Below, one piece after another: positions 1 to 62,957 of a stretch of 64,000 nucleotides of DNA. How positions within the stretch are numbered: position 1 is the first letter of the stretch; every line of letters begins with the position of its first letter. The notes below the pieces were generated by a model. That model was not told the origin of the DNA and made no database searches. It saw nothing but the letters and a program-made list of their open reading frames with translations. The DNA is from Actinomadura pelletieri DSM 43383. Its GTDB lineage: Bacteria > Actinomycetota > Actinomycetes > Streptosporangiales > Streptosporangiaceae. The translations under genes and the position numbers were made by a program. The DNA is taken from positions 1 to 64,000 of the forward strand of contig NZ_RBWU01000008.1 of NCBI RefSeq assembly GCF_003634705.1, read 5' to 3'.

Positions 1-54
1 CCGCTGGAACAGCTCCCACAACTCCTCCGGCACCAGCCGCTCGACCATCTCCAC
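1..54 (-). CDS. IS5-family transposase, N-terminal piece (runs off window)
   Basis: The reverse strand from a GTG at 54 (or ATG at 48) reads VEMVERLVPEELWELFQR. This is the usual opening of actinobacterial IS5-family transposases, and the frame is open to the window edge. Only the first 18 codons are visible, so completeness of the element is unknown. On the reverse strand the next 50 bases upstream of the start contain CATCTCATTTGGGTTGG (about 75-91), which resembles the terminal region of such elements as I remember them. The element apparently cut into the CYTH gene to its right. Confidence 0.6.
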   Translation of the reverse strand, partial: MEMVERLVPEELWELFQR

Positions 55-51038: not shown

Positions 51039-51544
51039 GTGGAGTCCACCCAGACCCTCAAGTGGCTTGCCCGCAACACCAAGCCTGTATCGGCGCTGGC
51101 CGACCCCAAGGTGATGCGCGCCGTCCTCGACCGGGCGGCGACGCTGCTTGACGGGTCGCTCGCCGCTCCCTCGACCGTCCAACGCAACCGCGCGATTCTC
51201 CACAACGCCTGTGAATACGCGGTCGAGTTGAACGCGCTCTCGGGCAATCCCGTCAAGGCCATCAAGTGGAAGGCCCCGAAAGCCTCGCCCGAGGTCGACC
51301 GGCGCTCGGTCGTTAACCACGGTCAGGCCCGGCGCCTGCTGAAGGCCGTACGGGGACAGCAGCCGAGCGGCCCGCGCCTTGCCGCATTCTTCGCCGTGCT
51401 CTACTACGCCGGCCTACGCCCGGAGGAGGCTGTCAACCTGCGTCGAGAGAACATCACCCTTCCGCGGCTGGTCTGGGACGACCAAACGGAAAGCTGGCAG
51501 GAACCGGCGGACGGCTGGGGATCGGCGCCGGGTTCGAGCAACTA
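51039..51544 (+). pseudogene. Tyrosine integrase fragment abutting the CRISPR array
   Basis: The frame from GTG 51039 carries a core-binding domain (STVQRNRAILHNACEYAVEL) and the beginning of the catalytic domain with its first arginine (YYAGLRPEEAVNLRRENITL). It ends six bases before the first CRISPR repeat at 51550. The remaining catalytic residues (Lys, HxxR, Tyr) are missing, and the N-terminal arm also seems lost. The array side of the locus therefore lies against a former integration event. Confidence 0.7.
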
Positions 51545-51549
51545 GTCAT

Positions 51550-52185
51550 CGGACCACCCCCACGGGCGTGGGGAGCACGATGTGCCGCTCGATCGTCCGT
51601 TGCCGCTGCTCGGACCACCCCCACGGGCGTGGGGAGCACGTGCGCACTCTCCACGACCTGCCAAGAGCCGTCGGACCACCCCCACGGGCGTGGGGAGCAC
51701 TAGGTGACCGTCTGGTCGCCGCCGAACCTGTACGGACCACCCCCACGGGCGTGGGGAGCACACCTGATCGAGCCGTCGCTGGTCTCTGCTCCGGACCACC
51801 CCCACGGGCTTGGGGAGCACTTCTTGTTCACTTCGAGGGTGCGGTAGTCGAACGGACCACCCCCACGGGCGTGGGGAGCACTCGGCCCGCGCGGCGGCCT
51901 TGTCGGTGAACTCCGGACCACCCCACGGGCGTGGGGAGCACCACCGGCACAGGGCGAGCCGTGAGAGCGGGACCGGACCACCCCCACGGGCGTGGGGAGC
52001 ACCGGAGAGTAATGATCAGCTCACCGGGATTAGGCGGACCACCCCCACGGGCGTGGGGAGCACGCGTGAGAGGCCGGGAGCTGCTGACTCCCGGCCGGAC
52101 CACCCCCACGGGCGTGGGGAGCACGATCTCAAATCCGCAGAAGGCAGACGAGGACCCGGACCACCCCCACGGGCGTGGGGAGCAC
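51550..52185 (-). CRISPR. Type I-E CRISPR array 1 (11 repeats, 10 spacers)
   Basis: Repeats of 29 nt begin at 51550, 51611, 51672, 51733, 51792, 51853, 51914, 51974, 52035, 52096 and 52157. Spacers are 32 nt, except 30 nt between the fourth and fifth. Read leftward the repeat has 5 nt, stem CCCCAC/GTGGGG with tetraloop GCCC, and 3' handle GTGGTCCG. The fifth repeat has one substitution and the seventh lacks one C. The leader lies at the right (52186 onward), next to cas3, so the newest spacers are at the right end. Confidence 0.97.
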
Positions 52186-52223
52186 ACTTCGTGACCTGCG
52201 GGTTCACAAGTGCGCTTGGAGTT
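52186..52223 (-). promoter_or_regulatory. Leader core of CRISPR array 1
   Basis: The 38 bases bordering the first repeat agree at 32 of 38 positions with the leader edge of array 2 (61431-61468). The shared core is AACTCCAAG, TTGTGAA, CGCAGGTC and CGAAG. Conservation next to the first repeat fits a Cas1-Cas2 integration anchor. The AT-richer stretch 52224-52250 may hold the array promoter. Confidence 0.7.
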
Positions 52224-52361
52224 TATATTTCGGGTTGTTCGGCTCTTGTGCCGTCTGCCGCCGCATGGGTGGAGCTTACTCTCGGCTGGTGGTCCCGGAC
52301 TGTCAGTCCTCGTCGCTACGGTCGGTCTATCGTGAGTCACGGGCTATGAGGGAATGAGGTC

Positions 52362-55151
52362 ATGACGGGGAATCCGCTTGAGGTCCCCGGTGTCGATCTG
52401 GCGCTGTGGGGAAAGCGTCGTGGTCTGCCGGGTCCCTATCCGGTGGTGTGTCATCTTTTGGACGCGGCTGCCGCGATGGGTGTGCTGTGGGATCTCTATG
52501 TCAGTCCTGCCGGACGACGGCACATCGCTGCGGGGCTCGGCGTCGATGATGAGCGTGCTCGGCGGGTGTTGATGTTCTGGGCGGCGCTTCATGACATCGG
52601 GAAGGTCACCTTTACCTTCCAGGCTCTGGCGGATGATGCGTTCCCCGAGTTGGTGGGGTATCCGGATGTTCCCAGGGAGCGGATTCGTCACGACCAGGCC
52701 GTGCATCAGTGGCTCGGGCCCGCTTTGCGGCAGGTCGGTTACCGCGCGCGGAGCTTGCGTGATGAGGCGTTCATGGTTGCGCAACTCCTTGGTGGGCATC
52801 ATGGGCGGTTCTTCGAGTTGAAGCGGGATATGAGTGACCCGCTGGTGTACTTCCCGTCGCTGGGAGGCGGTAAGTGGGAGCAGCAGCGTCAAGCCCTGCT
52901 CGGTGCGGTCCATTCTGTTCTCGGGGAGCCAGAGCCACCGGAAAAGCGTATGGACGCTGACGTTGCCGGGTTGGTGTGCGGGCTCGTGGTTCTGGCGGAC
53001 TGGCTGGTCAGCCAGGACTTCTTCGTCAAAGGGCGGCTCAAGGCGCGACCGAACGCGAACGATGCGGCTTCTCTGAAGGCGCATCTGGTGGAGAGTACGC
53101 GCCAGGTACCGGGGTTGCTGAAGGAGGCGGGCCTGGGCCGGCTCAGGCTTCAACCCGGCACGTTCGAGGACGAGTTCCCGTTCAACCCGAACTACCTCCA
53201 GCGGTCGCTGGCCGACGCGCTTCCCGCGCTGGTTGGTGAGCGTCCTGGCCTGCTTTTGATCACTGCGCCCATGGGGGATGGCAAGACGGAGATCGCGTTG
53301 CACTCGGCTCGGGTCATGGGTGAGGCCTGTGGTGTGCCCGGGATCTTCGTGGGGCTTCCGACGATGGCGACGGCCGATCAGATCTACGAGCGCGTGATGG
53401 AGTACGGGCTGCGCCGTGCGATCGACCCGGCGCCGTTGACGCTGTTGCACAGCATGGCGTGGCTGAATCCGGTGTATTCGCGAGACGTCCCGCCGAGCGG
53501 CGAGCCCGATGCCGAGATCTTGACGGGGGAGGGCGCACGTGGGGCGTGGACTGCTGCCACGGACTGGCTCCAGGCGCGGAACCGGGGAGTACTGGCCCCC
53601 TTCTCTGTGGGCACGATCGACCAGGCTCTGCTCGCCGCGCTGTGCGGTAAGCACAACATGCTGAGAATGATGGGCTTATCAGGCAAGGTCATCATCATCG
53701 ACGAGGTCCACGCCTACGACGCCTATATGCAGGGGCTCTTGCGTCGTCTGCTGACCTGGCTCGGGAGGCTGGGCGTACCGGTCGTCCTTTTGTCGGCCAC
53801 GCTTCCACGGCAGATCGGCCACCGATTGGTCGAGGCTTACCTTCTCGGCGCAGGTCACCGCTCGCCGATCGAGGTGACCGCTGGTTATCCAGGGTGGTTG
53901 TATGCGGACGCTGGGAGCGGGCGGGTCACGTCCAGGGCGTTGGACACCGAATCGCGGTCGCTGGACGTCGAGCTTCACGAAGTTCCCATCGGGAAGGACG
54001 GCCGAGCCGAGCGCAGTTCCTTTCTCCGAGAGCTCCTGAAGCCGCTGGTCGAGACGAACTCAGGTTGCGTGGGGATCATCTGCAACACCGTCGCCGAGGC
54101 GCAGCAGACTTTCGAGGATCTTCAGGATTGGCTGGGCAAGAGCTTTGCTGATGGCACACGGCGGCCACAGCTTCAACTATTGCACTCTCGGTTCCCTGCG
54201 GAAGAGCGTGCCGAAATCACCCGGACGGTCGTAGAATCTTTCGGTAAGATGGGGAAGGCGAGCGGAAAACGCCCGACGACCGCCGCGATTCTCGTCGCGA
54301 CTCAGGTTGTGGAGCAATCCATCGACCTGGATTTCGACTTTCTCATCAGCGACCTGGCGCCGATAGCGTTGCTCTTGCAACGTGCTGGCCGGTGCTGGCG
54401 GCATCCGCACAATCCCCGTCCCAGTTGGGTATCACGGGCCCGGCTGGCGGTCCTGTCGCCGGTTTCGGCGGGTGGGCGTCCCGCCGTGCCGGATTCGTGG
54501 CCGTTCGTCTATCCTGCCGCCCTCTTGCGCCGTACGAGGGAAGAGCTAGCAAAGCTCGCAACGGCGCCGATCCGGATCCCCGACGATGTTCAGCCACTGG
54601 TCGATGCCGTCTACGATGAAGACTTCCTCGACCCGAACAGTCAGATGGCCGATGACGATGTTGAGCGCATCGCCGACGAGCAGGTCAAGACGTTCATATC
54701 GCAACAGGTCACCATTCCGGAGCCCGCGGACGTCACCAGTCTTCATGCGCTGACGAGTTCGGACATTGACGAGGAGGTCATCCGGACCAGGCTCGGCGCC
54801 GATTCGGCGCGGATCATCTGCTGTTACCAGGCCCCATCCGGAAGGTTGTTCCTTGATCCTTCTCTGAGGGACGAACTCCCTGTGCGGGGGAGCCTGGACA
54901 AAGGACGGTTCACCAAGGCCGAAGTACGGATGCTCCTCGCCCGGATGATCCCTGTTCCTGCCGCGTGGGTGCGAGGACCAGACCCAAAGGACCCGCACTT
55001 GGTCGCCTGGCGTGAGAACGCCCATCTGCGCGATGTCCTCTTGCTGAGACATCCCGTTGACGGCGATGGCCGAATACGGCCAGCCGAGTTCGGAAACAAT
55101 TCCTTCGTTCTGTCGCCACAACTGGGGCTCGTGCGTCTAGCGTGCCGATGA
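52362..55151 (+). CDS. cas3: Cas3 helicase-nuclease (type I-E)
   Basis: This 929-aa protein has an N-terminal HD nuclease with H31, H77-D78 (AALHDIGKV) and GGHHG. The SF2 helicase core has Walker A APMGDGKTE at about residue 302, DEVHAYDAY at about 447, SATLP, and QVVEQSIDLDFD with QRAGRCWRH (motif VI). It is recruited by Cascade after R-loop formation and degrades the target strand. The ATG at 52362 follows GAGG. It is separated from cas8e by 184 bases that hold the mini-array. Confidence 0.96.
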   Translation: MTGNPLEVPGVDLALWGKRRGLPGPYPVVCHLLDAAAAMGVLWDLYVSPAGRRHIAAGLGVDDERARRVLMFWAALHDIGKVTFTFQALADDAFPELVGYPDVPRERIRHDQAVHQWLGPALRQVGYRARSLRDEAFMVAQLLGGHHGRFFELKRDMSDPLVYFPSLGGGKWEQQRQALLGAVHSVLGEPEPPEKRMDADVAGLVCGLVVLADWLVSQDFFVKGRLKARPNANDAASLKAHLVESTRQVPGLLKEAGLGRLRLQPGTFEDEFPFNPNYLQRSLADALPALVGERPGLLLITAPMGDGKTEIALHSARVMGEACGVPGIFVGLPTMATADQIYERVMEYGLRRAIDPAPLTLLHSMAWLNPVYSRDVPPSGEPDAEILTGEGARGAWTAATDWLQARNRGVLAPFSVGTIDQALLAALCGKHNMLRMMGLSGKVIIIDEVHAYDAYMQGLLRRLLTWLGRLGVPVVLLSATLPRQIGHRLVEAYLLGAGHRSPIEVTAGYPGWLYADAGSGRVTSRALDTESRSLDVELHEVPIGKDGRAERSSFLRELLKPLVETNSGCVGIICNTVAEAQQTFEDLQDWLGKSFADGTRRPQLQLLHSRFPAEERAEITRTVVESFGKMGKASGKRPTTAAILVATQVVEQSIDLDFDFLISDLAPIALLLQRAGRCWRHPHNPRPSWVSRARLAVLSPVSAGGRPAVPDSWPFVYPAALLRRTREELAKLATAPIRIPDDVQPLVDAVYDEDFLDPNSQMADDDVERIADEQVKTFISQQVTIPEPADVTSLHALTSSDIDEEVIRTRLGADSARIICCYQAPSGRLFLDPSLRDELPVRGSLDKGRFTKAEVRMLLARMIPVPAAWVRGPDPKDPHLVAWRENAHLRDVLLLRHPVDGDGRIRPAEFGNNSFVLSPQLGLVRLACR

Positions 55152-55178
55152 CGCAGAACGACGGCCCACAGCAACCTT
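55144..55178 (-). promoter_or_regulatory. Putative target of the mini-array guide, with AAG PAM
   Basis: On the reverse strand AAG (55178-55176) is followed by GTTGCTGTGGGCCG (55175-55162). The guide of the mini-array begins GTTGCGGTGGGCCG. The first 14 positions agree except position 6, which in type I-E crRNAs is flipped out and not read. Beyond position 14 agreement is patchy (8 of 18). The site overlaps the cas3 stop and lies about 160-190 bases before cas8e. Confidence 0.5.
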
Positions 55179-55208
55179 CTTAGGAAGCTTGCCGTGTTCG
55201 GTGCTCTG

Positions 55209-55298
55209 CCTGCAACCCCCACTGTCGTGGGGAACTTGACCTAGCTGCTGCCCGTCGGCCCACCGCAACCGGATCACCCCCACTGTCGTGGGGAATTT
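55209..55298 (-). CRISPR. Degenerate two-repeat mini-array between cas3 and cas8e
   Basis: Two 29-nt units (55209-55237 and 55270-55298) are spaced exactly 61 bases apart, the I-E period, with one 32-nt spacer (55238-55269). Read leftward, both keep the stem CCCCAC/GTGGGG but with loop GACA instead of GCCC. The right unit ends in handle GTGATCCG, close to GTGGTCCG and GTGAACCG of the two arrays. The left unit ends in a divergent GTTGCAGG. The outer five bases (AAATT, AAGTT) are unlike the arrays. It looks like a maintained crRNA-like gene, not a normal array. Confidence 0.75.
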
Positions 55299-55307
55299 CG
55301 TCGCCTC

Positions 55308-55336
55308 GTTGTACCGAGACTCTCGAAAGGACGTCA
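55308..55336 (-). promoter_or_regulatory. Possible promoter of the mini-array transcript
   Basis: On the reverse strand TGACGT (55336-55331) and TACAAC (55313-55308) are 17 bases apart. A start about 7 bases further would fall at about 55301, just ahead of the first unit at 55298. The elements are imperfect, and this promoter would overlap the cas8e start codon. Confidence 0.3.
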
Positions 55337-56880
55337 TGCCCCCTACCGGGTCTGACCTGGCCACCGATGGACTGATCCCGGTCTACCCGTCCGGTGGTGT
55401 TGGTCTGCGGGAACTGATGACCCGCGCGCACGAACTGCTCGACATTGATATACCGATGCCGCCCGCGGCGGCGGGCTTCCGGCGCATCCTAACGGTCCTC
55501 GCAGCGCGCATCACCGGGCTAGACAGACAGGACGACGGCGCCAACGAGTGGTTCGACCGGCGGGACGCCGTACTCGACCAGGGCGCCTTCGACCCTGACG
55601 CCGTGACCGCGTACTTCGACCGCTACCGCGACCGCTTCAACCTGTTCCATCCCGAGCGGCCATGGCTTCAGGACCCCCGGCTGGCGACCGAGTGCGATAG
55701 CCGGTCAGGCATCAACAAGCTGACACTGGAGCGCCCGGCCGGAAACAACCAGGTCTGGCTCGACCACCACCACGACGGTGAAGCCGGACCACTCGACCTG
55801 ACGACGGCCCTGTTCCACCTCGTCGCGCAACTCTTTAACGGGCCGTCGGGACGCTGCACGGCCCGAACCGTCAACGGCAAGAAGTACGCGAACACGACCG
55901 CTGGACCGTTGCGGCGGGTGGTCTCCTTCCATCCGTTGGGCCGGAACCTGTTCGAGTCGCTCGTTATCGGAATCCCGTTTCTTGGACGCGCGAGCGGTGA
56001 CGACCGCGCGCCCTGGGAGTACGACGAGTTGCCCGACCCTCTCGGCGTCCCTCCAAGTCCCGTCGGAGTCGGCGGCGTCCTCACCGGGTTGTTCCGGCAC
56101 GCCCTGCTTCTGGAACCAGACCCCGACCGGACGAAGGTCGTCAATGCCTACTTCACGTGGGGGTGGCGCCAACCGCACCCGATGGTCAACGATCCGTATC
56201 TCATCTACCAGGCGAACAACGAGGGCGAGTTTTACCCGCGCCGCGCCGACTTGGCGCGTGCCCTGTGGCGCGATCTGGACGCTCTTCTCCTCAACGATGT
56301 CGGTGTCCGCGGAGGCAGGAGCAAACGGCCCGCCGTCTTCGGAGACGCCGCAGAGTGCCTGCCGTTCGACATCCGTGACGCGCTCCGGGTCCGCGCCTAC
56401 GGCTTTCACCAGGACGGTCAGACGCGTGACCAGCAATGGTTCGCCGCGACGACCCCGGCGGTGCTCGGTACCCTGATCGGCGATCACGAGACCGCAGGTG
56501 CGCTCAGTCGGGCGCGGGACGCCGCGGAACGCGCTGAATGGCACCTCCAACGAGCCTTGCGCAATGCCTGGATAGCGATCAACGATCCGTCCAACGGCGA
56601 CGGCCGCCCGGTCCGCCGCGAGAGCGACATCGGGCAGGGCCCTTGGCCCGGGGCCGCCGCCGGACGCTACTGGCCGCGGGCCGAGGCGGTCTTCTGGCGC
56701 CGCCTCCGACACCGCGACTTCGAGGACGCGGCACGCAGTTTCGTCAACACCGCAACCGCGGTGTTCGACGAGGTCACCGAGCCCGCCGCGCATCGTCCGC
56801 GCGCCAAGCGCTCCATCGAACGCGCTCGCGGCTTCATCTACCGAGCGCTCAACGAGTCCACTCCGAGGGACGAATCATGA
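55336..56880 (+). CDS. cas8e: Cas8e / Cse1 (Cascade large subunit)
   Basis: This 514-aa protein starts at the ATG at 55336, after GAAAGGAC. An upstream in-frame start would run through the mini-array and is rejected. It contains the Cse1 N-domain (FNLFHPERPWLQDPRLA), the conserved GPSGRCTARTVNGKKYANT segment corresponding to the PAM-sensing L1 region, and the C-terminal four-helix bundle (ARDAAERAEWHLQRALRNAW). It recognises the PAM and recruits Cas3. The stop overlaps cse2 by ATGA. It is the first gene of a seven-gene run with coupled junctions. Confidence 0.93.
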   Translation: MPPTGSDLATDGLIPVYPSGGVGLRELMTRAHELLDIDIPMPPAAAGFRRILTVLAARITGLDRQDDGANEWFDRRDAVLDQGAFDPDAVTAYFDRYRDRFNLFHPERPWLQDPRLATECDSRSGINKLTLERPAGNNQVWLDHHHDGEAGPLDLTTALFHLVAQLFNGPSGRCTARTVNGKKYANTTAGPLRRVVSFHPLGRNLFESLVIGIPFLGRASGDDRAPWEYDELPDPLGVPPSPVGVGGVLTGLFRHALLLEPDPDRTKVVNAYFTWGWRQPHPMVNDPYLIYQANNEGEFYPRRADLARALWRDLDALLLNDVGVRGGRSKRPAVFGDAAECLPFDIRDALRVRAYGFHQDGQTRDQQWFAATTPAVLGTLIGDHETAGALSRARDAAERAEWHLQRALRNAWIAINDPSNGDGRPVRRESDIGQGPWPGAAAGRYWPRAEAVFWRRLRHRDFEDAARSFVNTATAVFDEVTEPAAHRPRAKRSIERARGFIYRALNESTPRDES

Positions 56881-57536
56881 AGTTGGAAGAGAGAAGGCGA
56901 GTCTCCGCTGCTGCGGACAGACTCGTCGAGAGCGTCAGTGAACAAATCGCCAGGAGTCCCGGAAACAGAGCGGCCCTGCGTCGTTCGGTCGGGCGGGCTC
57001 CCGAACACCCGCAGTCTCGGCACGCAATCGCGCTCGTCGCCCGCCACATTCCACCGGAGAGCGACGAGGCCGTGGAACGAGCCTTCTACGCGGTGGCGGC
57101 ACTGATCGCGGCGCAGCCCCGCCAGTCTCCGCAGGACGATTCGGACGACGACGTCCCGAACGGTGAAACGGCTGATGAGCTGGACGCCGCAACCGGCGTC
57201 AAAGCGCCGGAGTCATGGAACCTCGGCGCGACACTCGGGCGGGCCGTGGCGCTGCCGGGTTCGCCGCTGAAGTTCGACACGGTCGAGGCTCGCCTGCACC
57301 TGCTCTGCCGCCAGCGGATCGACGGGCTCCACCGCCAGTTGCCCCGCCTGGTCTCCCAGTTGAAGGCGATCCGCGTGCCGGTCGACTGGTCGCGGCTCAC
57401 TGTCGACCTGTCCCGTTGGGGCACCGATGCGGACTACGTCGCCAAGGAATGGCTGCAGGACTACTACCGCACCTACTTCCGGCTGAAGCCGACCGATGAG
57501 ACCCCCCCACCGATCGATGAGAGCGAGGGCCGATGA
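56877..57536 (+). CDS. cse2: Cse2 / CasB (Cascade small subunit)
   Basis: This 219-aa, mainly helical protein has ALRRSVGRAPEHP near the start (conserved L-R-R-g motif), YAVAALIAAQPRQSP, and a C-terminal part with LARAV-like LGRAVALPGSPLKFDTVEAR and DYYRTYF. Two copies line the belly of Cascade and stabilise the crRNA and displaced strand. An acidic linker (DDSDDDVPNGETADE) in the middle makes it longer than the E. coli protein. ATGA overlaps join it to both neighbours. Confidence 0.9.
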   Translation: MKLEERRRVSAAADRLVESVSEQIARSPGNRAALRRSVGRAPEHPQSRHAIALVARHIPPESDEAVERAFYAVAALIAAQPRQSPQDDSDDDVPNGETADELDAATGVKAPESWNLGATLGRAVALPGSPLKFDTVEARLHLLCRQRIDGLHRQLPRLVSQLKAIRVPVDWSRLTVDLSRWGTDADYVAKEWLQDYYRTYFRLKPTDETPPPIDESEGR

Positions 57537-58687
57537 AGACCCCCAAGTACCTGGACGTCCACATCCTCCAGACACTTCCCTACAGCAACGTGAACCGCGA
57601 TGATCTCGGTTCGCCGAAGACCCTGGTCTACGGGGGGACACCGCGTACGCGCGTGTCCAGCCAGGCGTGGAAGCGTCCGGTGCGGTTGATGGTCGAAGAC
57701 GACCTTGGTGAGCCCGCCGCCCGGACCCGGCGAGTGCCCGGCCACGTCAGCGAGCGCCTCCAGAAACGCGGCTGGCCGAAGGAACTCGCAGACGCCGCAG
57801 GCAAGCAGATCCTGCGCTCGGCAGGTGAGAAAGAGACAGGTCTCAAGTACGAGAAGGACGGCAGCAGCGCCGCCTTGTTCTACCTGCCGACCAGCGCTTT
57901 GGACGAGCTCGCCGACCTCGCCGAGGAGTACCGGGACGCGATCGCCGCCGAGGCGGGCACCAAGAAACCCGCAGCCGCCCTGCCCAAGGCCCGACTTCAC
58001 GAACTCATCACCGAGCGGAACGCCAGCATCAATCTGTTCGGCCGCATGCTCGCCGAAATTCCCGGCGCCGGCGTCGACGGCAACGTTCAGTTCGCCCACG
58101 CGTTCACCACCCACGGCACCGACCCGGAGATCGACTTCTTCACCGCCGTCGACGACCTCAACCAGGCCGACCAGCACGGCAGCGGCCACATGAACAGCGC
58201 CGAGTTCAGCGCGGGCGTCTTCTACCGCTACGCCTGCCTCGACATCACCGGGCTGATGCGCGGTCTGGCAGGCCCCCAAGCGTCCGGCACATCGGCGGCT
58301 GACCACACCTATGCCGCCCGACTCACCAGCGCGTTCTTGACCGCATTTCTGTCCGCACTCCCCAGTGGCAAGCAGAACTCCACCGCCGCGAACACTCTGC
58401 CCGACCTGGCGTACCTGGCGGTGCGGTCCGACCGGCCGATCTCACTGGCTCCCGCGTTCGAAAGCCCGGTCCGCGCCGAGTCGGACGGCTGGGCGGCTCC
58501 GTCCTTCCGCCGACTCGCCGACCACAGCACCAAGATTCGCCGACTGTGGGGAACCAGCGGAATCGTCTTCGACGGCTACGCCGGCGTGGAGGACAAGCCG
58601 CTCACCGGGCTCGGCACCGCGGTCGACTCCTACCCCGAACTGATCACGTCAGCGGTTGGAGCCGCCTTCCCCGAAGCGCAGGCGTGA
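57533..58687 (+). CDS. cas7e: Cas7e / CasC (Cascade backbone)
   Basis: This 384-aa protein has the RRM-like front KYLDVHILQTLPYSNVNRDD and KTLVYGGTPRTRVSSQAWKR. NASINLFGRMLAEIPG and VQFAHAFTTHGTDPEIDFFT form the thumb and central parts. Six copies polymerise along the crRNA spacer and kink out every sixth nucleotide. The start at 57533 overlaps cse2, and the stop overlaps cas5e by one base. Confidence 0.95.
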   Translation: MKTPKYLDVHILQTLPYSNVNRDDLGSPKTLVYGGTPRTRVSSQAWKRPVRLMVEDDLGEPAARTRRVPGHVSERLQKRGWPKELADAAGKQILRSAGEKETGLKYEKDGSSAALFYLPTSALDELADLAEEYRDAIAAEAGTKKPAAALPKARLHELITERNASINLFGRMLAEIPGAGVDGNVQFAHAFTTHGTDPEIDFFTAVDDLNQADQHGSGHMNSAEFSAGVFYRYACLDITGLMRGLAGPQASGTSAADHTYAARLTSAFLTAFLSALPSGKQNSTAANTLPDLAYLAVRSDRPISLAPAFESPVRAESDGWAAPSFRRLADHSTKIRRLWGTSGIVFDGYAGVEDKPLTGLGTAVDSYPELITSAVGAAFPEAQA

Positions 58688-59436
58688 TGGGACTACTCCT
58701 ACGCCTGGCCGGTCCACTGCAATCATGGGGCGAACACAGCGTGTTCGGCCACCGGGACACCCTCCGATTCCCCACTCGATCCGGGTTGATCGGAATATTC
58801 GCCGCCGCAGAGGGACGCCCACGCGGCACGCCGCTGGACGACTACGACAGCCTGCGGCTGACCATCCGGATCGACCGGCCCGGCATCATCATGCGGGACT
58901 ACCACACCATCGGCGGCGGATACCCACGAGAACTCACCGTGCCCACCGCAGAAGGCAAGCGGCGGCAACCCGGGTCCGAGACGATTCTGACCCACCGCTA
59001 CTACTGTTCGGACGCGGTCTTCGTCGTCGCTGTCGAGGGCCCCAGCGAACGTACCGATGCCATCGCACGCGCCCTGGAATCACCGTACTGGCCTGTGTAC
59101 CTCGGTCGCCGATCATGCCCGCCGGACCAGCCGCTCCTGCTGAACGGCGATGTCGACGACCCCGTCGTGCATCTGCTGACCCGCGTGCCCGTAGCCCGCC
59201 GCCCACCCCGGCCGGACACCCCATACGAACTCGACTTCGTCACCGAAGGAAGCCGCGGTGACGCTGAATCGGTCGCGGAACTCACCGACGTGCCGCAGAC
59301 CTTCTCCCGCCTTGAACGCAAGTTCCGAACCAGAACGGTCTCGATCGCTCCGCGACCCGTCCCGGCGGAACTGTGGTCAAAAGCCACCAACGCCTACCAC
59401 GACGCACTGATCGAATACATTCAGGAGGCCCGGTGA
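58687..59436 (+). CDS. cas5e: Cas5e / CasD
   Basis: This 249-aa protein opens MGLLLRLAGPLQSWGEHSVF, the defining Cas5e start, and continues with RFPTRSGLIGIFAAAEGRPR and MRDYHTIGGGYPRE. It caps the backbone and grips the 5' handle of the crRNA. The handle differs between the two arrays (GTGGTCCG, GTGAACCG) and the mini-array (GTGATCCG), so this subunit must accept variation at handle positions 4 and 5. The start at 58687 overlaps cas7e, and the stop overlaps cas6e. Confidence 0.95.
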   Translation: MGLLLRLAGPLQSWGEHSVFGHRDTLRFPTRSGLIGIFAAAEGRPRGTPLDDYDSLRLTIRIDRPGIIMRDYHTIGGGYPRELTVPTAEGKRRQPGSETILTHRYYCSDAVFVVAVEGPSERTDAIARALESPYWPVYLGRRSCPPDQPLLLNGDVDDPVVHLLTRVPVARRPPRPDTPYELDFVTEGSRGDAESVAELTDVPQTFSRLERKFRTRTVSIAPRPVPAELWSKATNAYHDALIEYIQEAR

Positions 59437-60068
59437 CCGTCTGGCTGACCCAGATCTCGCTTGACCTTCGTCACCAGGCCGCGCGCCGCGACATCGGTGA
59501 CGCCGCCCGCGCGCACCGTCGGGTGATGTCGCTCGTCCCCGATGGGCTCGGCGCCGAAGCCCGCCGCGAGGCCGGCGTGCTCTATCGGCTCGAGCAGTCC
59601 CGCACCGAAACGCGGTTCCTCGTCCAGACCACCCGCCGCCCCACCGACGACAAACTGCCCGCCGGTTACGGCACGGTCGCTGTGACAAGTCTCGACCCGC
59701 TGCTAAAACTCCTGGACACCGGACTGGTCGTCCGGTACCGCTTGGTCGCCAATCCGACCAAGCGGCACGGCCGGACGTCGCCGCACCAGGGCAAACTCGC
59801 GGCGCTGACCGGCGCCGCGGCGGACCAGTGGTGGAGCGACCGCGCCGCACGAGTCGGACTCGCGCTGCGGACCGCCACGACCACATCCCTCCCCGACCTC
59901 GTCGGCCGCAAAGACGACCGTCCCATCCTGCACGCGGCCCGCCGCTTCGACGGCATCGCGATCGTCACAGCCCCCGACGCACTGCGCACAGCCATCCTGG
60001 AAGGCATCGGACGAGGAAAGTCCCACGGCTGTGGGATGCTCAGCATTGTCCCGGCGGGCTCACAATGA
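59433..60068 (+). CDS. cas6e: Cas6e / CasE crRNA endonuclease
   Basis: This 211-aa protein starts at GTG 59433 (GTGA overlap with cas5e). The N-terminal RAMP fold contains H28 in RAHRRVMSLVP, at the place of the catalytic histidine of Cas6e. The C-terminus has the glycine-rich loop GIGRGKSHGCGMLSIVP that binds the repeat hairpin. It cuts each repeat at the base of the stem, leaving the 8-nt 5' handle. It must process both repeat variants because no second cas6 is present. Confidence 0.94.
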   Translation: MTVWLTQISLDLRHQAARRDIGDAARAHRRVMSLVPDGLGAEARREAGVLYRLEQSRTETRFLVQTTRRPTDDKLPAGYGTVAVTSLDPLLKLLDTGLVVRYRLVANPTKRHGRTSPHQGKLAALTGAAADQWWSDRAARVGLALRTATTTSLPDLVGRKDDRPILHAARRFDGIAIVTAPDALRTAILEGIGRGKSHGCGMLSIVPAGSQ

Positions 60069-61045
60069 GCATCCGCGCCCGCCGCGACCTCGGCACGCCG
60101 ACACTCGCGATGCTGCCCCGCATCGCCGACTCGCTGTCGTTCCTCTACCTGGAAACGGTCCGTATCGTCCAGGATGACCTCGGAATCTGCGCTCAGGTCG
60201 AATCGCCGCGCGGCACAGAACGGGTCTACCTGCCCGCCGCCGCGCTGAGTTGCGTCCTGCTCGGCCCAGGAACTTCGATCACTCAACCGGCGCTTGCGAG
60301 TCTCGCGCGGAACGGCACGAGCCTTGTGGCCGTCGGCGCGGGAGGCGTCCGCAGCTACGCGGGCATTCTGCCGGCGTCGCTCACCACCACATGGCTGGAG
60401 CGTCAGGCACGGGCATGGGCCAACGACGACCAGCGCCTTGCCGTCGCGACGCGAATGTACACCTACCGTTTCGGTGCACCCGGAGAAAGCGCCTCGCTCG
60501 CTCGGCTGCGCGGCATGGAAGGCCAGCGGGTCAAGGCGCTCTACCGCATCCTGGCGCAGAAGTACGGAATCAAGCGTTTCCGACGGAACTACGATCCGTC
60601 AGCGTGGGACAGCCAGGATCCAGTGAACCTCGCCCTCTCAGCAGCCAACTCTTGCATGTACGGCGTCGTCCACGCGGCGGTTCTCGCGCTCGGTTGCTCG
60701 CCCGCCCTCGGCTTCATCCACAGCGGCACACAAATGGCCTTTGTCTACGACATCGCCGACCTCTTCAAGATGCAGGTCACCGTCCCGCTCGCTTTCTCGC
60801 TGCACGCAGCATCAAATCCGGAGCGCGAGGCCCGCCGAGCACTGCGCGAGGAGTTCCGCCTCCTCAAGCTCATGCCGGGCATTATCACCGCTATACAGCA
60901 AGTCCTGGACCCCTCGGTTGCCAGCGAGACCACCGACCGCACGGGCGACATCACCCATCTATGGGACCCGCACGCTGGCCAGTTACCAGCGGGCATGAAC
61001 TACGCGGACACCGTCACACCCGGAGACGACCCATGGGAACAATGA
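60065..61045 (+). CDS. cas1: Cas1e integrase
   Basis: This 326-aa protein has catalytic residues E152 (LRGMEGQRV), H219 (LGFIHSGT) and D229 (VYDIADLFK) with the spacing of E. coli Cas1 (E141, H208, D218). The start is GISL-like, SIRARRDLGTPTLAMLPRIA. With Cas2 it inserts new spacers at the leader-repeat border. The start overlaps cas6e (ATGA) and the stop overlaps cas2. Nothing suggests inactivation. Confidence 0.96.
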   Translation: MSIRARRDLGTPTLAMLPRIADSLSFLYLETVRIVQDDLGICAQVESPRGTERVYLPAAALSCVLLGPGTSITQPALASLARNGTSLVAVGAGGVRSYAGILPASLTTTWLERQARAWANDDQRLAVATRMYTYRFGAPGESASLARLRGMEGQRVKALYRILAQKYGIKRFRRNYDPSAWDSQDPVNLALSAANSCMYGVVHAAVLALGCSPALGFIHSGTQMAFVYDIADLFKMQVTVPLAFSLHAASNPEREARRALREEFRLLKLMPGIITAIQQVLDPSVASETTDRTGDITHLWDPHAGQLPAGMNYADTVTPGDDPWEQ

Positions 61046-61356
61046 TCGTCCTCTCCACGACGGCCGTGCCCGACTACGTCCGCGGCTCCCTCACCCGCTG
61101 GCTCACCGAACCGGCCCCCGGCCTCTACGTCGGCACAGTCTCCGCCCGCGTTCGCGACAAACTCTGGGAGGCCGTTAGCGAAGCGGTTGGTGAAGGCGCT
61201 GCCGTCCTCGTCCACCCAGCGACGACCGAACAAGGCTTCACCATCCGAACCGCCGGAGAACGCCGCCGCCGCATCGCCGACTTCGACGGTCTCCAACTCG
61301 TCCGGTTCCTCCCCCAAGACACCGAAGACCCGACAGCCCCAACAGAACCGACATAG
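61042..61356 (+). CDS. cas2: Cas2e (CasI family)
   Basis: This 104-aa protein starts at the ATG at 61042, chosen because it forms the usual ATGA overlap with cas1 and gives MIVLSTTAVPDYVRGSLTRW, the Cas2e opening. An ATG at 61033 is in frame. EPAPGLYVGTVSARVRDKLW and QGFTIRT follow. The protein is the structural core of the Cas1-Cas2 integrase. The leader of array 2 begins about 75 bases after its stop. Confidence 0.93.
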   Translation: MIVLSTTAVPDYVRGSLTRWLTEPAPGLYVGTVSARVRDKLWEAVSEAVGEGAAVLVHPATTEQGFTIRTAGERRRRIADFDGLQLVRFLPQDTEDPTAPTEPT

Positions 61357-61430
61357 CCACCCGGCCCCGCGAACCAACACACCAATGACCAGACTCCCCA
61401 GGAACCAGGCACCCCGAGGAGGCAGTCACG

Positions 61431-61468
61431 AACTCCAAGTGCCTTTGTGAAACCGCAGGTCGCGAAGC
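61431..61468 (+). promoter_or_regulatory. Leader core of CRISPR array 2
   Basis: The 38 bases before the first repeat match the leader edge of array 1 at 32 of 38 positions. The region 61357-61430 between cas2 and this core is only moderately AT-rich, and no clear promoter was identified in it. Confidence 0.7.
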
Positions 61469-62957
61469 CTGCTCCCCACGCCCGTGGGGGTGAACCGCAC
61501 ACGAGTTGTTCGTGTCGGGGGAGCCCCTGCTGCTCCCCACGCCCGTGGGGGTGAACCGCTCATGACAGCATCGCCCCCAACTTGCGGGCCCTGCTCCCCA
61601 CGCCCGTGGGGGTGAACCCCCGCTGAAGAGAACCCACCGCCGACCGGGCAACTGCTCCCCACGCCCGTGGGGGTGAACCGACGCCGGAACCGTGCGTGAT
61701 CTGCAACAAGCCCTGCTCCCCACGCCCGTGGGGGTGAACCGTTGGCGATGGAGCTCGGCCTCACCGTCACCAACTGCTCCCCACGCCCGTGGGGGTGAAC
61801 CGCCTGCGCAGGTACCGGTCGACGTCGGCGGGAGCTGCTCCCCACGCCCGTGGGGGTGAACCGCGGCCAGAGGCCGCGTCCCAAGGTGGGCTTTGCTGCT
61901 CCCCACGCCCGTGGGGGTGAACCGGTGTCTCGCCCTTCCTTGACCACGCGTCCGAGTTGCTCCCCACGCCCGTGGGGGTGAACCAGTCCCCGTCCTCACG
62001 CTCGTCCTGGCGCTCGTCCTGCTCCCCACGCCCGTGGGGGTGAACCGATCGCGCGTAGCCAGTCCGCCAATCCCTGAGTCTGCTCCCCACGCCCGTGGGG
62101 GTGAACCGTTGTACCCGATGTCGTCCCATCCTCGGCCGTCCTGCTCCCCACGCCCGTGGGGGTGAACCGGTGAGGCAGTGGCAGGCCGCCCTACGCACCC
62201 ACTGCTCCCCACGCCCGTGGGGGTGAACCGCCGGGGCCCGCTCGCCGACGTGCGCGGCGCCCATGCTCCCCACGCCGTGGGGGTGAACCGCCGCGGTCCG
62301 AGACCTACGCGGGGGTGTGAGCCTGCTCCCCACGCCCGTGGGGGTGAACCGGACACTCTGACCGCCGAGGACGAGCAGCAGTTCTGCTCCCCACGCCCGT
62401 GGGGGTGAACCGCCTACGGCGGGCTGATGCCGCTGGCCGGGACCCTGCTCCCCACGCCCGTGGGGGTGAACCGGAGAAGCGGGAGCCGTACCCGACGAAG
62501 GCGAACTGCTCCACACGCCCGTGGGGGTGAACCGCTCTGGCTCGACCCGGCAAGTGAGCAGCCCGACTGCTCCCCACGCCCGGGGGGTGAACCGGTCCGG
62601 GCCGAAGCGCCTCCCGAAGCGTGGGCCTGCTCCCCACGCCCGTGGGGGTGAACCGGTTTCGATCATGAGCGGGATTGCGGCGGTGAACTGCTCCCCACGC
62701 CCGTGGGGGTGAACCGCGGACGGGAGCCCGGACGGTGGTCGAGGACGTCTGCTCCCCACGTCCGTGGGGGTGAACCGCCCAGCTCGCCGAGCAAGCCGAA
62801 GCCGCGGCCCTGCTCCCCACGCCTGTGGGGGTGAACCGGTAGACGACGCGGCTCGGTTTGGTTCGGGTCGCCTGCTTTCCACGCCCGGGTGAACCAGTGT
62901 CTCGCAGCGCCTGATCCACCTGCGCCGTCGGCTCCCGGCACCCGTGAGGGTGAATCG
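61469..62957 (+). CRISPR. Type I-E CRISPR array 2 (25 repeats, 24 spacers)
   Basis: Repeats of 29 nt recur every 61 nt from 61469. They differ from array 1 by the first base (C) and by AA in place of GT in the handle, GTGAACCG. The stem CCCCAC/GTGGGG is the same. Repeats 14 (62263) and 19 (62567) lack one base, repeat 9 has both end bases changed, and two spacers are 33 nt. The last two repeats (62872-62896 and 62929-62957) are strongly decayed, as expected at the old end, so the array is read rightward from the cas2 side. Confidence 0.97.

Follow-up and report, generated by a model that had tools for sequence, protein, structure and literature searches.

A degenerate mini-array in the cas3-cas8e gap of a type I-E locus from Actinomadura: a probable CreR-type guide matched to an adjoining site, with counterparts in related actinobacteria

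The window analysed here comprises the first 64,000 nucleotides (64 kb) of contig NZ_RBWU01000008.1 of Actinomadura pelletieri DSM 43383, and holds a type I-E locus of clustered regularly interspaced short palindromic repeats (CRISPR) with its cas genes. On the minus strand of the gap between cas3 and cas8e, a repeat, a 32-nt spacer and a second repeat form a mini-array with a unit spacing of 61, and beside it lies a site, preceded by AAG, that matches the start of the spacer. Comparison with related loci shows that the sequences of guide and adjoining site are kept complementary at the positions read by Cascade while their letters drift between lineages (35 loci). The array, its handle, the protospacer adjacent motif (PAM), the seed match, its recurrence and its covariation in relatives are direct observations. 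The mini-array probably specifies a CreR-type guide that represses cas8e and the genes downstream of it, either by blocking a promoter or as a roadblock to transcription.

Both repeats of the mini-array are degenerate (Table 1). The right, upstream repeat is identical at 22/29 positions to the commonest repeat of each flanking array, and the left repeat at 20/29 to that of array 1 and 19/29 to that of array 2. Both retain the 6-bp stem, with the loop GACA where the arrays have GCCC. The handle is intact in the right unit only (GTGATCCG). The two flanking arrays run in opposite directions and have different handles, GTGGTCCG and GTGAACCG, that of the mini-array being a third form. By sequence, hairpin and handle of the mini-CRISPR resemble those of the local arrays, as in CreR. 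The bases behind the AAG of the target are GTTGCTGTGGGCCGTCGTTC, and spacer bases 1-14 are identical to them save base 6; within positions 1-20, guide and target differ at 6, 15, 18 and 19. At its far end the 32-nt target runs into the final bases of cas3, whose stop codon ends at 55151; PAM and array are 30 bp apart. A sequence-only reading of the window had described the two repeats 61 bp apart, their stem, loop and right-unit handle, and that description holds base for base; the spacer, the same-strand AAG and the agreement over positions 1-14 except 6 were likewise correct in coordinates and bases.

Recurrence was studied among Cas8e relatives gathered by protein search, profile search and contig scan, a sample centred on the relatives of this locus rather than on I-E systems at large. 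It held 165 loci, of which 159 were oriented and 101 remained as non-redundant once near-duplicates, recognised by shared 100-mers, and loci offering under 400 bp of upstream sequence had been dropped. Six distant loci lacking a Cas8e match and the self-matches of L040 and L041 were also dropped before counting, and a near-copy of the window (G057/L002) was handled separately from the counts. The detector covered both strands, beginning 700 bp before the estimated start of cas8e and ending 30 bp inside the gene. It required a stem with at least 5/6 pairs, then a handle like GTGANCCG at 5/7 or better, and then compared AAG sites with the next 11 bases; strongly decayed guides are missed because it requires a handle. 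The seed was defined as 10 bases, positions 1-5 and 7-11. A guide with an AAG site matching at least 9/10 seed bases is present in 35/101 loci, and these fall into 30 guide clusters. The 6-pair stem is kept in 34/35, and 33 of the guides and 34 of the targets lie on the minus strand. Named loci among them include members of Actinomadura, Thermomonospora, Planomonospora, Sinosporangium, Acrocarpospora, Nocardiopsis, Thermobifida, Actinorhabdospora, Streptomyces and Actinacidiphila.

The handle filter alone discriminates little, some candidate being found in 100/101 loci. Among minus-strand candidates with a 6-pair stem (57 from 47 loci), 32/57 reach at least 9/10 seed bases in their own locus, while the same 57 guides, each set against 40 other loci, do so in 5/2,280 trials. 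When no PAM is required, 46 sites reach 9/10, and AAG precedes 36/46 of them versus a background of 1.06%. A scan with neither handle nor stem filter was too noisy to count (61/101 real regions versus 33/101 made by a Markov model); from it, L045 and L109, which have full handles, were kept in addition to the 35. A looser scan of the loci without a hit, to 1.7 kb upstream, gave mostly noise. L059 and L093, with good handles and a seed of 8/10, and L137, whose match was seen by eye only, are not among the 35. In L069 (Crossiella, 880-bp gap) a weak-handle guide and an opposite-strand AAG site agree at 17 of the first 20 bases, with mismatches at 1, 6 and 13; this possible variant of the module may be real and is uncounted.

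I-E Cascade reads the bases of its guide in fives, every sixth base being flipped out. The remark in the sequence-only reading that the mismatched position 6 is such a base is supported at the positions outside the selection: over the 35 loci, mismatches occur at position 6 in 23/35 and at position 12 in 28/35, as in unrelated sequence, versus only 40/140 cells at positions 13-16. From 17 to 32 the mismatch is 57-79% per position. At 13-16 the guides match their own targets in 100/140 cells and the targets of other loci in 1,418/4,760.

The same positions carry the covariation that had been proposed as a check in related loci. Differences between similar guides at core positions are followed by the targets in 157/180 cases, largely forced by the 9/10 selection, as in the sister loci L058/L064 at base 9 and L071/L102 at base 8. 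Covariation was therefore counted at positions outside the selection, replacing the core-position count. In 789/1,662 comparisons of guides that differ at 13-16, each of the two targets follows its guide; the comparisons are not independent because each locus enters many. Elsewhere the same count gives 188/1,734 (19-22), 140/1,674 (25-28) and 64/805 (6 and 12). Pairing that mostly holds and covaries at 13-16, stops near 16 and leaves 6 and 12 unconstrained points to binding without a full R-loop.

In the nearest relative found, Actinomadura spongiicola LHW52907 (L002, 99% Cas8e), the target differs from that of the window only at position 6. The site corresponding to 55160-55200 of the window is in L002 a palindrome, running PAM to PAM with AAG on both strands, and gives two face-to-face targets of the guide, at 10/10 and 9/10; the second is 7/10 in the window. 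Several other loci (L035, L043, L046, L058, L135 and, at 8/10, L093) have a second same-strand AAG target of the same guide 21-62 bp away, some overlapping the first. In L049 a second same-strand target lies 18 bp away, flanked by ACG rather than AAG.

Three other origins of the match were considered and rejected. The first is chance. The target is the sole AAG-flanked site in the window with a seed match of at least 8/10. Eight window sites with other flanks reach 9 or 10 of the 10 bases, so the PAM is essential to the argument from uniqueness. The pattern AAGGTTGCNGTGGGCCG (16 specified bases) occurs once in the 7.5-Mb assembly with up to one mismatch, at the target; its reversed control likewise has one match, elsewhere in the assembly. 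The 32 stretches beside the 32 repeat units of both arrays reach at most 6/10 at the AAG sites of 55101-55400. Together with the difference between own and swapped guides and the excess of AAG where none was asked for, these results bear out the earlier judgement that a chance match is unlikely. A longer simple duplication, which had been named as something to check, is excluded too: in the window the identity of guide and target ends at the repeat/PAM boundary, and upstream of it (positions -10 to -4, seven bases) agreement over the 35 loci is 54/245 cells, or 22%, the level of chance. Nor is this an ordinary immune array, for which near-full complementarity would be expected; the window has mismatches at 6, 15, 18, 19 and beyond, and the pairing of the family's guides past position 16 is random, unlike that of interference spacers.

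The position of the pair bears on what it might control. It is absent from all loci with a cas3-cas8e gap below 180 bp (0/28) and present in 33/60 with a gap of 180-1000 bp, including L045 and L109; in 13 further loci the gap was unmeasurable or outside these limits, and 4 of the 13 have the pair. In 25/33 loci in which cas3 was found, the PAM edge falls within a span from 9 nt before to 58 nt after the cas3 end. In L165 it is the target, not the guide, that stands nearer to cas8e, 151 nt from where Cas8e is estimated to start. Six relatives (L004, L006, L071, L086, L090 and L102) carry a plus-strand TANNNT, which is TGC-TANNNT in four of them, starting 5-6 nt after the PAM start, so that the PAM would sit on a promoter directed toward cas8e. 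Control of cas8e is preferred on account of this placement near the cas3 end, the layout of L165, the promoter boxes of relatives and the fact that no toxin-like open reading frame (ORF) was found in the window.

Candidate promoters for the guide RNA are seen in relatives as well. Minus-strand TANNNT boxes stand upstream of the guide, 36-43 nt away in 8 loci and 54-58 nt away in 8 Streptomyces loci (n=33; L108 was left out, its guide being on the other strand). The window has no TANNNT at this position, only a TACAAC, picked by eye, at 44 nt. Read by eye, the Streptomyces loci L052, L058, L063, L064, L065, L067, L088 and L089 have a TANNCT box upstream of the guide, often as GCCGTANNCT, and in several of them GGAACGGC or a similar motif precedes the box; this arrangement is perhaps a special sigma-factor promoter for the guide RNA. 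Several also have an extra GC hairpin after the upstream repeat, to the right of the mini-array. At the other end of the array in the window, the strong hairpin that holds PAM and seed is a possible end of the guide transcript; a terminator consensus search found none at this hairpin, nor anywhere in 55050-55450.

Under the CreR-type reading, the mini-array would yield one leftward RNA of about 61 nt, like a CRISPR RNA (crRNA), from the minus strand of 55209-55298, with the 5' end GUGAUCCG. Cas6e would trim it at the right-hand hairpin, and Cascade would load it as an ordinary crRNA and bind the AAG site at the cas3/cas8e junction. Pairing would be limited to segments 1-5, 7-11 and 13-14 (plus 16-17), with bases 6 and 12 flipped out, and such an incomplete R-loop would not license Cas3 to cut. 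The bound complex would block transcription of cas8e and the downstream Cascade genes, at a promoter there or as a roadblock to read-through from cas3. Consumption of Cascade by ordinary crRNAs or by an anti-CRISPR would then lower repression and lead to more Cascade.

Several results weigh against this reading. Under the handle filter 66/101 loci lack a pair at 9/10. Once L045 and L109 are counted as having one, 27/60 loci with a gap of 180-1000 bp still lack it, and 2/27 of these (L059 and L093) reach 8/10. The target is not near the cas3 end in 8/33 loci by the measure used, and in L006 and L050 the cas3 end itself looks misplaced. A sigma-70-type promoter consensus scan of 55050-55450 found none, leaving a plus-strand promoter unlocated, and in the window TANNNT is missing from the stretch that runs from 28 nt ahead of the PAM start to 13 nt past it. 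For several Streptomyces loci the likely -10 (TACGGT or the like) is about 40 bp beyond the PAM and not under the target. Taken in isolation, the window guide's handle and spacer pair with themselves, though scarcely better than shuffles do (23/200 are equally good), and 3' processing is uncertain because the left repeat is degenerate. In addition, we infer that the guide RNA is transcribed and processed, that Cascade binds and represses without cutting, and that cas8e is the gene under control.

The most serious alternative would keep the guide and change its client. Some of the relatives carry a small hydrophobic ORF between target and array. We looked there for plus-strand ORFs, 24-70 aa long, that contain a hydrophobic stretch (mean of at least 1.8 over 16 residues) in 36 intervals, 14 of at least 150 nt and 22 shorter. 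Such an ORF is present in 9/14 long intervals versus 0.45 expected from shuffles, with 0/14 on the minus strand; the shorter intervals have 0/22, many being too short to hold one. The nine loci are L033, L039, L045 (Spongiactinospora), L047, L049, L050 (Thermobifida), L056 (Nocardiopsis), L135 and L149. Their products of about 33-43 aa have one likely membrane segment, and several have a good ribosome site. Eleven aligned peptides are weakly alike, two at 33% and 25% to that of L045 and the rest at 16% or less. None of 8 peptides gave a Pfam match above the cut-off (there were two weak matches, E 0.05 and 0.08), and one peptide searched in 338 family genomes had a single match, whose position is that of its own locus. 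L062 has almost the same guide as L056 and keeps the guide/target match, yet its frame appears broken. Similar hydrophobic frames occur in L034 and L137, outside the count. In L035 and L043 a minus-strand hydrophobic frame runs from the tandem targets toward cas3 (in L043 it is short and was seen by eye); the tandem targets of these two loci could serve two divergent promoters. The small peptides may be toxins (a peptide CreT) or something else. In the window, the interval between target and guide yielded no ORF of at least 25 aa and no ORF of at least 18 aa containing a hydrophobic stretch; a GTG frame of 16 codons behind AGGAAG can be made out by eye across the array, and nothing supports it.

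These ORFs favour an addiction module of the CreTA type, in which the guide would repress a toxin in the cas3-cas8e gap, either a small RNA or a very short peptide, and not the cas genes. A precedent is Acinetobacter I-F, where creTA is reported to occupy the gap between cas3 and cas8, a mini-ORF of 33 bp following its target (PMC10097628). In the window, however, the PAM-array interval is 30 nt and no candidate creT ORF was found behind the target, although an RNA toxin or a shorter ORF may be present; addiction is unlikely here. The CreR-like label is preferred over CreTA because of that short interval and because no toxin-like ORF was found in it. The sequence-only reading had suggested a CreA-type guide with which Cascade represses either a CreT or the cas genes; its seed-matched, PAM-flanked guide stands, and of the two labels CreR fits better here.

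Two other explanations dispense with control of cas8e altogether. The guide could act on the transcript that carries it or on the 3' region of cas3, control of an antisense RNA being one example, with no net effect on cas8e: the target is downstream of the guide on the same strand, so that bound Cascade could also halt the guide transcript, and PAM and seed lie within the strong hairpin of the guide strand. A target beyond the array, however, means that a block there would not prevent production of the guide, and a position near the start of the cas3-cas8e gap is common to 25/33 loci; we consider this explanation improbable. Still less credible, indeed barely so, is a functionless remnant, an ordinary array decayed or recently captured from a self-derived spacer or a duplication. 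The repeats are still 19-22/29 like those of the arrays, and self-acquisition can produce AAG-flanked self matches. Yet decayed copies would show neither this pairing, which breaks off near 16, ignores 6 and 12 and covaries at 13-16, nor own guides that so far outscore swapped ones (32/57 versus 5/2,280). The decayed duplication that had been left open at the outset is thus opposed by the pairing pattern and the covariation across lineages.

Control of cas8e by a CreR-type guide has parallels in known systems, in so far as the available portions of the papers describe them. The I-E system of S. avermitilis uses AAG as its PAM (PMC4762764). For CreA, pairing at 1-5 and 7-11 is needed and bases 6 and 12 do not pair (PMC8501985). 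CreR autorepression has been reported for I-E, the types named being I-B, I-E and V-A (PMC13131331). Like CreR (Liu et al., 2023, Cell Host Microbe, via PMC12737573, PMC13131331 and PMC12948488), the window combines a mini-CRISPR RNA gene, as predicted, with a partially complementary site by the cas genes and no toxin gene seen. It differs from those accounts in belonging to an actinobacterial I-E set and in having its target at the cas3-cas8e junction, and repression here would be an extrapolation from them. With CreTA, described from haloarchaeal I-B and Acinetobacter I-F systems (PMC8501985, PMC9458426, PMC10097628), it shares two degenerate repeats, the 1-5/7-11 seed with 6 and 12 free (a haloarchaeal trait) and a PAM-flanked target, and with the Acinetobacter I-F CreTA also the location in the cas3-cas8 gap. 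In contrast to CreTA, no toxin was found in the window, and pairing over the present family reaches about 16. In Acinetobacter I-F, 17/20 guide bases pair, with 6, 11 and 18 unpaired (PMC10097628), a set different from the 6/12 pattern of the actinobacterial family. The CreT toxins described act as RNAs, whereas the ORF-bearing relatives have a hydrophobic ORF. In CrePA (PMC12737573) a protein gene is under the guide-bound effector, comparable to those relatives; CreP is typically a KilA-N protein, while the relatives' ORFs are of about 33-43 aa and the window has none. A 2025 review of actinomycete CRISPR mentions arrays between cas3 and cse1 in I-E variants; its available text has 0 occurrences of 'crRNA-like' and 'autoregulat' (PMC12231136). 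Among the literature matches listed, none concerned guides of this kind in I-E systems of actinobacteria; that coverage did not extend to the primary papers on CreR and on CRISPR-derived regulatory RNAs. Shmakov and colleagues reportedly described, in NAR in 2023 (gkad495), solitary mini-arrays whose spacers are partially complementary to the promoters of cas genes, that of cas8 in particular. Because the two likeliest primary papers (Liu 2023, Shmakov 2023) are outside the coverage, no priority is claimed. The kind of guide is already known as CreR/CreTA, and the possible novelty of the family is its peptide-bearing members.

The surrounding locus has the order array 1, cas3, a 184-bp gap, cas8e, cse2, cas7e, cas5e, cas6e, cas1e, a frame ending in Cas2e, and array 2. 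The cas8e start was picked by eye as the ATG at 55336 behind GAAAGGA, the longest frame beginning at 55288. Rfam gave 0 matches at gathering scores over 51200-62900.

Table 1. Features of the type I-E locus and its mini-array, in window coordinates
Feature	Position	Strand	Basis or remark
CRISPR array 1	51544..52191	crRNA strand minus	11 repeat units found; commonest repeat GTGCTCCCCACGCCCGTGGGGGTGGTCCG
cas3 (HD nuclease-helicase)	52362..55151	+	TIGR01587, TIGR01596 above cut-off; NF007248 below cut-off
Target (protospacer)	55175-55144	-, same strand as guide	bases 1-14 match except 6
PAM AAG of target	55178-55176	- (CTT on +)	sequence
Strong hairpin past array, holds PAM and seed	55155..55208	- (guide strand)	-25.7 kcal/mol, z -4.35
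Downstream (left) degenerate repeat AAGTTCCCCACGACAGTGGGGGTTGCAGG	55237-55209	-	handle lost
Spacer/guide GTTGCGGTGGGCCGACGGGCAGCAGCTAGGTC, 32 nt	55269-55238	-	sequence
Upstream (right) degenerate repeat AAATTCCCCACGACAGTGGGGGTGATCCG	55298-55270	-	hairpin intact, 5' handle GTGATCCG
Candidate guide-RNA promoter -10, TACAAC	55308..55313	-	by eye; 44 nt upstream of first guide base
cas8e, first Cascade gene, presumed regulated	55336..56880	+	TIGR02547
cse2	56538..57536 (longest frame; domain from ~residue 134)	+	TIGR02548
cas7e	57533..58687	+	TIGR01869
cas5e	58546..59436 (longest frame)	+	TIGR01868
cas6e, presumed repeat processor	59373..60068	+	TIGR01907
cas1e	59828..61045 (longest frame; domain from ~residue 94)	+	TIGR03638
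Frame with Cas2e at C-terminal end (residues 265-350)	60250..61356	+	TIGR01873
CRISPR array 2	61469..62845	crRNA strand plus	21 units via one pattern; commonest repeat CTGCTCCCCACGCCCGTGGGGGTGAACCG

For the family as a whole, we entertain only tentatively that these loci represent an actinobacterial I-E module at the cas3-cas8e junction that is old and fast-drifting and whose output has been switched, serving as a throttle on Cascade in some lineages (for example, that of the window) and controlling a membrane peptide elsewhere. If so, the peptide form would be a peptide-toxin CreTA, its single-pass peptide becoming harmful once Cascade is lost or inhibited, and guides and targets would be replaced jointly while the seed/flip pattern stays fixed. 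Should the guide work as read above, the family would serve for comparative tests of how RNA guides control actinobacterial cas genes, and its small hydrophobic peptides would be flagged as candidate CRISPR-controlled toxins.

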